Shown: in pieces, positions 9,197 to 15,096 of the stretch | Position numbering within the stretch: position 1 is the first letter of the stretch | Layout of the letters: each line of letters starts with the position of its first letter | Source: Oscillatoriaceae cyanobacterium M7585_C2015_266 | GTDB taxonomy: Bacteria; Cyanobacteriota; Cyanobacteriia; Cyanobacteriales; Oscillatoriaceae | Reading direction: 5' to 3' | Length of the DNA stretch: 64,000 nt | Assembly: GCA_015295835.1 (NCBI GenBank) | Contig: DVEG01000020.1 | Location: 62,001 to 126,000, forward strand | Made by a program: the position numbers and the translations under genes | The notes under the pieces: generated by a model | Seen by the model: only the letters and a program-made list of their open reading frames with translations | What the model was told of the DNA's origin: nothing | The model's database searches: none

Positions 9197-10171
9197 ATGA
9201 CGAGCAGTGGCAACGAGCAGAAAAATTTGATCAAAATCGCCGTGGTGGGAGATGTCCACGAGCAGTGGGAAGAGGCAGACGGCATAGCACTCAAACACTT
9301 AGGCATAGATTTAGTACTATTTGTGGGGGATTTTGGCAACGAATCAGTACCAGTGGTGCGAGCGATCGCAGCCCTTGACATTCCTAAAGCAGTAGTATTC
9401 GGTAACCACGACGCCTGGTACACCGCCACCGACTGGGGGCGCAAAAAATGCCCCTACAACCGCGAGCAAGAAGACAGAGTACAGGAGCAGATCGATTTGC
9501 TGGGAGCCGCCCACGTCGGTTACGGAAAGCTAGACTTTCCAGAACTGGGTTTAACCGTGGTGGGCAGTCGCCCTTTTACTTGGGGCGGCTCGGATTGGAA
9601 ATATGGCGATTTCTATTACAGCCGCTTCGGAATATCCAATTTTGAAGCATCCGCTGAACGCATTCTCAACGCAGCTCGCCGCGCCGCCTGCGAAACAGTG
9701 ATTTTTTTGGGCCACAACGGACCGAAGGGTTTAGGAGAATTGCCAGAAGATCCCTGTGGCAGAGACTGGAATCCTTTAGGAGGAGATTTTGGCGATCCCG
9801 ATTTCGCCGCCGCGATCGCTGGCGCACGGGCACTCGGTAAAAAAATTCCCCTCGTCACCTTTGGACACATGCATCACCGCCTACGCCATACTCAGCAGCG
9901 ATTGCGTCGAGCTATTCACGTCAGCCCAGAAGGCACAGTTTACTTAAATGCCGCTTGCGTACCCCGCATCGTCAAAACAGAAACAGACTGTCAGCGCAAT
10001 TTTTCAATTGTCTCCCTAAAAGACAGTACTGTCTGCCAAATTTCTCTTATCTGGATCGATGCCCAATTTAAGATCGCTTCCGAACAGGTGCTTTATGCTC
10101 TTGGCAGCCCCAGGGGGAAATTTCACTTGCAGGCATTCGCCGATTTTCAGCGCTCGCAATTCAGCAGATAA
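9197..10171 (+). CDS. Metallophosphoesterase (cyanobacterial TIGR04168-like)
   Basis: The calcineurin-like phosphoesterase motifs appear in order: GDVHEQW near residue 14, GDFGNE near 48, GNHDAW near 76, the FLGHNGP segment, and GHMHHR near residue 223. The 324-residue length and the overall sequence match a family common to cyanobacteria and plastids. The substrate is unknown; a phosphoester hydrolase using two metal ions is all the sequence supports. The start is ATG at 9197. A tRNA-Ser gene follows 32 bases after the stop. Confidence 0.85.
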   Translation: MTSSGNEQKNLIKIAVVGDVHEQWEEADGIALKHLGIDLVLFVGDFGNESVPVVRAIAALDIPKAVVFGNHDAWYTATDWGRKKCPYNREQEDRVQEQIDLLGAAHVGYGKLDFPELGLTVVGSRPFTWGGSDWKYGDFYYSRFGISNFEASAERILNAARRAACETVIFLGHNGPKGLGELPEDPCGRDWNPLGGDFGDPDFAAAIAGARALGKKIPLVTFGHMHHRLRHTQQRLRRAIHVSPEGTVYLNAACVPRIVKTETDCQRNFSIVSLKDSTVCQISLIWIDAQFKIASEQVLYALGSPRGKFHLQAFADFQRSQFSR

Positions 10172-10203
10172 CACAAAATCGGTTATTATAATCCTATCCC
10201 TCT

Positions 10204-10291
10204 GGAGAGGTGGCAGAGTTGGTCGATTGCGTCTGACTTGAAATCAGATGAGCCTGTAAGGGTTCCGGGGGTTCGAATCCCTCCCTCTCCG
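10204..10291 (+). tRNA. tRNA-Ser (anticodon UGA)
   Basis: An 88-base class-II tRNA. The acceptor arms GGAGAGG (10204-10210) and CCTCTCC (10284-10290) pair fully, with discriminator G at 10291. The anticodon TGA lies at 10239-10241 in the loop CTTGAAA. The long variable arm and GGTTCGAATCC T-arm are present. CCA is not encoded. Confidence 0.97.
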
Positions 10292-10399
10292 TTCCCTACC
10301 CAAGGTAAATGAACACTTTTCACTTGTGCCATTTACCCGATTTTCAGCAATTTGAAAACGGCTATGTTTAAGGATAGTAACAAAAACTAAAATCTAGTA

Positions 10400-10428
10400 T
10401 TGACAGAGGCAAACAAAAACGTTATAAT
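10400..10428 (+). promoter_or_regulatory. Consensus sigma-70 promoter without an adjacent gene
   Basis: TTGACA (10400-10405) and TATAAT (10423-10428) match the consensus exactly with the ideal 17-base spacer. The next coding start (invertase) is 432 bases downstream, so the transcript either has a very long leader or is a non-coding RNA. Confidence 0.7.
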
Positions 10429-10449
10429 TAATACCTGTATTAAATACAA

Positions 10450-10474
10450 AAGCTGTTCCCATCTTTGACAGCTT
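10450..10474 (+). ncRNA. Possible structured small RNA or leader hairpin
   Basis: AAGCTGT (10450-10456) pairs with ACAGCTT (10468-10474) around an 11-base loop. It begins roughly 15 bases after the start point expected from the promoter at 10400. Only the 5' hairpin can be delimited; no clear terminator defines a 3' end, and I cannot assign it to a known RNA family. Confidence 0.3.
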
Positions 10475-10860
10475 AAGCAGAACCGGGTGCTATTTTGGCG
10501 GCATATTTTGTCGCTATTAACTCAGTATTGTCAAATCCCCTTTCCTGCAACTAGCAGACAAATAAGAAAATATGGGGAACAAAAAATAGGATTTCGTGAA
10601 AAATCCAGTTTCTTGGTTTCAGGAAGTACTGGAAGTCAAGTTTTTTGTAAAATACCCACTTAACCTATACCAAAAAACGTCAAGAAGGAAGTGCTTTGAC
10701 GGAGATGGTGAAACGCAGTGATTGGCGATTCGAGGTATAAAAGCGCTTGAACCAAAGAATTGCTATTTTGTTATTGCTATCTCGTCTAGAGGGAGAAAAT
10801 TCGATAAAAAACTCGCAAATAAGTCAAGAAAATAATCTGTTTGAATACTAGAAATAAGCG

Positions 10861-12243
10861 ATGGAAAATTCCATAGTTGAAGAGGCATGGCAAGCGCTGG
10901 AAAAAGCAATCATATATTATTATGATCGTCCGATAGGGACATTAGCAGCAAGGGATCCAAATTTAGAAGCCCTCAATTACGATCAGTGTTTTATCCGGGA
11001 TTTTGTATCATCAGCACTGGTTTTCCTGATTAAAGGGCAACCAGAAATTGTCCGCAACTTTTTGATAGAAACTCTGCGGATGCAGATAAAAGAAAGGCAA
11101 CTAGACTTTCTTGAACCAGGAAGAGGGTTGATGCCAGCAAGCTTTAAAGTAATAGTAGAAAATGACTATCAATATTTGCAGCCAGATTTTGGCGATCGCG
11201 CCATTGGAAGAGTAACCCCCGTAGACTCCTGTCTATGGTGGATTATGATTTTGCGCGCCTATGTAAAAGCAACTGGCGACATAGAACTCGCCCACCAAGA
11301 CGAATTTCAAAGAGGAATCCGGCTAATTTTAGAACTCTGCCTAGTAGCTAGATTTGATATCTACCCAACCCTATTGGTTCCCGATGGCGCTTCCATGATT
11401 GATCGCCGCATGGGAACAAACGGACATCCTCTAGAAATCCAATCTCTATTTTACGCCGCGTTGCGTGCCGCTAACGAACTTTTGCTCGATAATAAAGTCA
11501 ATCAATTTATCATTCAGGGAGTAAAAAATCGACTGGGACCCCTCACAGAACATATTCGCAAACATTATTGGCTAGATATGGAGCGTTTAAATGATATCTA
11601 TCACTACAAAGGTGAAGAATATGGAGAACACGCTCTCAATCAGTTTAATATCTATTCTGACTCAATTCCCTATGCGTGGTTGACTGAATGGCTGCCAGAA
11701 AGAGGCGGTTATCTGGCGGGCAATCTTGGCCCTTCACAGTTGGATTGTCGCTTTTTTACTGTAGGTAACTTGATGGCAATTATCTCTTCCTTGGCAAGCC
11801 CTCGCCAATCCCAAGCCATTATGGAACTTATCGAACAGCGCTTTGATGATCTTATCGGTTACATGCCTATGAAAATTTGTTTTCCAGCTCTAGAAGACAG
11901 AGACTGGAAACTCGTAACCGGCTGCGATCCGAAAAATAGACCCTGGTCATACCACAATGGCGGCAATTGGCCAGTATTAATTTGGATGTTGGCAGCAGCT
12001 TCTCTGAAAACTGGGCGAATAGAATTAATATCTCACGCAATTGAAATTGCAAAAAGACGATTGAGTGCTGATCGGTGGGCTGAATATTACGATGGCAAAA
12101 ACGGTAGACTTGTCGGCAAAGAAGCAAGAAAATATCAAACCTGGACGATCGCAGGCTTTTTATTGGCGCAAGAACTGCTAGCTAATCCTGAGCATTTGAA
12201 ATTAATCAGTTTCGAGCCAGATGAAATCACAAATAGAGCATGA
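10861..12243 (+). CDS. Alkaline/neutral invertase (GH100)
   Basis: This enzyme hydrolyses sucrose to glucose and fructose in the cytoplasm, at neutral to alkaline pH. The 460 residues cover the whole (alpha/alpha)6 barrel of GH100. Conserved blocks are [13 protein letters not shown] (residues 39-51), [10 protein letters not shown] (118-127), MIDRRMG (179-185, whose Asp is the likely catalytic acid) and [11 protein letters not shown] near 360. The length matches the cyanobacterial Inv enzymes. It starts at ATG, has a roughly 570-base upstream gap, and appears monocistronic. No sucrose synthesis gene is nearby. Confidence 0.93.
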
Positions 12244-14709: not shown

Positions 14710-15096
14710 GGGGCTTCAACGGTTTCGATGTGTCGGCGAAAGCTGATCCATGATCCAGGCCGAGAGTGAGTCTTCTCTCGTAAATACCAGGCTCGAAAGA
14801 AAGTAAAGGCGAACAACATCGTTCCTTTTGCTCGTAAGGCTGCCACTGTTGCTGCCTAATAACCTCTAATCAGGTTCGAGCGTCTGTAGGCTGACTCCGT
14901 TAAAGTCTGCAGACATAACCCCAACGGATGCTCTAGCAAGATTCCTTTGGTTGCTTGCTAGCTAAGACTTAACCAAAGAATCCTATCATCCGGGATAATG
15001 GATGATTCCCGCTCTGAGGGTAAGAAGAGCTAAGCCTGTGAATGAGTGGAAGGTGAATACCCGGCGCAGACATGGGTTCGACTCCCATAAGCTCCA
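14710..15096 (+). ncRNA. ssrA: Transfer-messenger RNA
   Basis: This is a one-piece tmRNA. The 5' end GGGGCTTCAACGG and the 3' end AAGCTCCA form the acceptor stem, with a GGTTCGACTCC T-arm just before it. The resume codon begins at 14809, and the tag reads ANNIVPFARKAATVAA with TAA at 14857-14859. The usual cyanobacterial tag ends very similarly (KxAxVAA), supporting the call. It rescues stalled ribosomes and tags the nascent chains for proteolysis. CCA is not encoded. A gene fragment on the minus strand abuts the 3' end. Confidence 0.97.

Follow-up and report, generated by a model that had tools for sequence, protein, structure and literature searches.

An exact consensus sigma-70 promoter upstream of a cyanobacterial GH100 invertase gene and its predicted long leader

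In cyanobacteria, TTGACA and TATAAT hexamers are recognised by the group 1 sigma factors, and promoters of this kind are known as type 1 (SigA) promoters (PMC2758279). The median mRNA leader in Synechocystis measures 52–54 nt (PMC5386190). Small RNAs that double as the 5′ end of an mRNA, termed actuatons, have been described in Synechocystis 6803 and 6714, e.g. CsiR1–slr1214 and Yfr2b/c, and cyanobacterial small RNAs undergo fast evolutionary turnover (PMC5386190). The locus described here has in common with these actuatons a strong distal promoter, a long intergenic stretch and a sense gene with no obvious promoter of its own; whereas a discrete, abundant small RNA is produced in the Synechocystis examples, the present locus holds a candidate from sequence only, with a weak terminator.

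The window analysed is a stretch of 64,000 nucleotides from an Oscillatoriaceae cyanobacterium. On its + strand, an exact −35 box (TTGACA, 10400–10405) and an exact −10 box (TATAAT, 10423–10428) are separated by a 17-base spacer and match 12 of 12 consensus positions, bearing out the exact TTGACA-17-TATAAT pair of the original prediction at 10400–10428. As in type 1 promoters, both hexamers stand at the optimal 17-base spacing; in contrast to these promoters, the site is a perfect Escherichia coli consensus, a form hardly used in many genomes of the order, and its activity is predicted. This is the single exact pair in the window at spacers of 15–19 bases, and dinucleotide shuffles of the window gave a mean of 0.11 exact pairs, with one or more in 10 of 100 shuffles. 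The + strand of 10293–10860 was also scanned for paired −35 and −10 hexamers with a threshold of ≥9 of 12. The promoter was the sole site at or above this threshold, and a type 2 (−35-less) promoter closer to the invertase is possible. A repeat or mobile element as the bearer of the promoter was rejected, the 10293–10860 sequence being single copy in its genome.

Upstream of the promoter, a calcineurin-like metallophosphoesterase gene (9197–10171, +; Pfam PF00149, 1.3e-12) is followed by tRNA-Ser (UGA) at 10203–10292 (+), called by ARAGORN and Rfam (RF00005). Downstream lies a gene for a GH100 alkaline/neutral invertase (10861–12243, +; Pfam PF12899, 4.7e-221). The ATG of the invertase (10861) follows the −10 box by 432 bases, and the tRNA ends (10292) 108 bases 5′ of the −35 box, so the earlier statement that no gene lies within 430 bases is true downstream only. 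An 8-bp inverted repeat, GGTAAATG...CATTTACC then CGATTTTC (10304–10337, +), was read directly from the sequence and went unscored by the terminator scans; it is a possible 3′ end signal of tRNA-Ser. No strong terminator was found between tRNA-Ser and the invertase.

An ortholog of the metallophosphoesterase was present in 57 of 60 relatives; of 30 such loci retrieved, 27 also had tRNA-Ser (UGA) next to it. This gene pair (window 9197–10292; loci L118–L146) is kept across the order, whereas almost every genus has a different sequence 3′ of the tRNA. This genome has no second GH100 invertase above the family cut-off. Among the seven other genomes of the family, four had none and the remaining three a more distant copy (~60% identity for two of them), with orthologs elsewhere in the order reaching 76% identity.

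Based on these features, we read the site as a functional SigA (type 1) promoter from which the GH100 invertase would be transcribed with a ~425-nt leader, a reading to which we assign a probability of about 0.6. RNA polymerase with SigA would start at ~10433–10437, and transcription would run on through the intergenic space to the invertase at 10861; the mRNA would thereby carry an untranslated leader of ~425 nt, predicted at 10436–10860 (+) from distance only. A repressor might bind the palindrome that overlies the start site. The original prediction had offered either a small RNA or a long invertase leader, and the leader is the better supported of the two because the promoter is the sole site scoring ≥9 of 12, because no strong terminator intervenes and because other exact promoters of the genome are found 360–560 bases ahead of genes. 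The exact pair against 0.11 expected, the enrichment across the genome and the mostly intergenic location of the copies also count for the leader. Counting against it are the length of ~425 nt, far above the Synechocystis median of 52–54 nt, the lack of promoter and leader before every other invertase examined, and a weak hairpin–T6 element at 10612–10646, which could stop transcription before the invertase.

Exact pairs were counted genome-wide (3.98 Mb in 35 contigs). At spacers of 16–18 bases, 28 exact pairs were found against 3 matches to a reversed control, and at spacer 17 there were 19 against 1; from the former ratio, about nine-tenths of the exact pairs in the genome are above chance. 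An approximate ORF call places some 20 of these 28 pairs between genes, although about four-fifths of the window is coding. A chance match, or a decayed promoter that is scarcely transcribed if at all, would agree with the ~3 exact matches per genome expected from the reversed control and with the absence of the site at corresponding places in relatives. We nonetheless regard this as improbable given the 28 pairs against 3 and a site that falls in the one-fifth of the sequence that is intergenic and AT-rich, ahead of a correctly oriented gene. With exact sigma-70 pairs at about nine times their chance frequency, a simple pattern search could list strong start sites in this genome.

Among 60 genomes of the order, the number of exact pairs at spacer 17 ranged from 0 to 94, with a handful in most. 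Within the family, three members had 1 or 2, and counts of 92 and 94 came from two complete genomes of another of its genera. The pair had been called rare in cyanobacteria; this is fair for many of the order's genomes, though neither for this one (28 against 3) nor for the sister genus (92 and 94). The two genomes of that genus, G001 and G004, carry 92–94 exact TTGACA-17-TATAAT pairs, and a third genus belonging to this family has 1–2. In G001, an identical promoter recurs every 279 bases (e.g. G001:C11:78910–79775), four times on contig C11 and twice on C12, in a tandem-array-like arrangement.

The distance to the invertase could be compared with that behind other exact promoters of the genome, at least four of which are intergenic and lie 360–560 bases ahead of a gene. 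With the nearest downstream sense ORF of ≥80 amino acids as end point, the distances were 363 (acyl-CoA synthetase-like), 395 (PilT-like), 406 (helix-turn-helix protein) and 560 bases (metE), the four gene functions being named from translations and not by family search. Gaps of 363–560 bases make the 432-base distance here not unusual, and the best reading is that a ~425-nt leader is long relative to Synechocystis but fits the other exact promoters of the genome. One long leader of the genome is demonstrably of the riboswitch type: at the metE locus (L108, G000:C22:3893–6920), a cobalamin riboswitch (1273–1417; RF00174, 66.3 bits) sits between the exact promoter (1501–1528; both on the − strand) and the gene for a MetE-like methionine synthase, 560 bases downstream. 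The two loci are alike in having an exact promoter several hundred bases 5′ of a gene (560 there, 432 here); they differ in that the metE leader contains a known conserved aptamer, whereas the invertase leader matches nothing.

The metE precedent, together with leader folding somewhat better than that of its own shuffles (z of −2.3 for 425 nt and −2.5 for the first 100 nt), would suit control of the invertase by a new riboswitch or attenuator. However, equal folding was seen in 12% of ordinary windows of the sequence at 425 nt and in 6% at 100 nt. Riboswitch aptamers are conserved, and no homologous leader was found before any other invertase compared; we consider such an element most improbable.

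The 7-bp hairpin foreseen just downstream of the promoter is present at 10450–10474 (+; AAGCTGT-11-ACAGCTT), with no T run after it. Its description as the only structure was incorrect, as a palindrome at 10428–10443 and further predicted stems, including one at 10612–10640 followed by T6, accompany it. This last element, CTTGGTTTCAGGAAGTACTGGAAGTCAAG then TTTTTT (10612–10646, +; T6 at 10641–10646; −9.2 kcal/mol), is weakly terminator-like and is the best candidate for the 3′ end of a small RNA. Hairpins as good before at least five Ts occurred in 13 of 284 windows (top 5%), some of them inside genes, and 3 of 25 shuffles contained one at least as good. A second hairpin at 10723–10765 is stronger, with a poorer T run, and its like is commoner still (41 of 284 windows). 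Between A5 (10599–10603) and T6 (10641–10646), within 10589–10646 of the window, the stems are terminator-like on both strands. The palindrome, the terminator-like hairpin and the overall folding of the leader are all unexceptional relative to background.

An Rfam scan of 10293–10870, one of the checks proposed with the original prediction, matched no known small RNA, riboswitch or leader family: nothing reached the gathering score, and there were chance-level matches only at E values up to 10. A small protein gene was considered and rejected, since neither a 58-amino acid ORF (10487–10663) nor a 41-amino acid ORF (10596–10721) had a Pfam match; the former had no convincing relative in 60 genomes.

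The leader at 10436–10860 may contain a discrete small RNA, and the main rival to a simple invertase leader is a lineage-specific small RNA of ~210 nt (10435–10646) or longer with partial read-through into the invertase, i.e. an actuaton. The strong promoter combined with the hairpin–T6 element, equalled in just 13 of 284 windows, would suit this arrangement, but the terminator stem is weak, being matched in 3 of 25 shuffles and elsewhere in the window. Likewise, the invertase has no other obvious promoter in the ≥9 of 12 scan, and Synechocystis has known fusions of small RNAs to 5′ UTRs, which are evolutionarily labile (PMC5386190); against this, leader folding is within the ordinary range, Rfam gave no match and the sequence is unconserved in 293 genomes of the order. 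On balance we find an actuaton doubtful. With no Rfam match, no conservation, a weak terminator-like hairpin and ordinary folding, a separate small RNA is without positive support. The finding is an ordinary one, and nothing demonstrates a new regulatory RNA.

The perfect 7-2-7 palindrome TTAATACCTGTATTAA (10428–10443, +) is centred on the predicted start at 10433–10437. When the surrounding 100 bases were shuffled, a dyad this good arose 4.75% of the time, and the palindrome has a single exact copy in the genome. An operator regulon was rejected because near copies numbered 34 per strand against 52 for a control pattern. That the palindrome is the operator of a local repressor is, from sequence, an unsupported possibility. 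A composite arrangement, in which a lineage-specific regulatory small RNA of ~210 nt is also the leader of the sucrose-cleaving invertase and is switched by a repressor through the start-site palindrome, appears very unlikely.

Conservation of the intergenic sequence in relatives, another check proposed with the original prediction, was examined in 293 genomes of the order, and no syntenic or conserved match was found. The test has little power here, because the tRNA–invertase junction looks specific to the species and the species is the sole member of its genus among the genomes compared. This, together with the fast turnover of cyanobacterial small RNAs (PMC5386190), means that non-conservation leaves a small RNA unrefuted. 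The junction and the promoter were absent from every other genome examined. Other GH100 invertases compared had no alignable leader and no tRNA-Ser upstream, and the other invertase loci fetched had no consensus promoter within 1 kb upstream. A conserved non-coding element was rejected, as intergenic matches in relatives were just 21–60 bases long and scattered along the query; none of the loci of these matches that were compared was near an invertase. The −10/palindrome region had a 22-base match ~870 bases 5′ of a G041 invertase (L009); this match lacks a −35 box and was judged to be chance.

If the invertase leader is real, it would add one more long 5′ UTR, possibly one actuaton, in a lineage of cyanobacteria that lacks transcript data, and would provide a test case for invertase control. 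Further along the window, a tmRNA gene with the tag peptide ANNIVPFARKAATVAA was called by both ARAGORN and Rfam at 14710–15096 and is ordinary.
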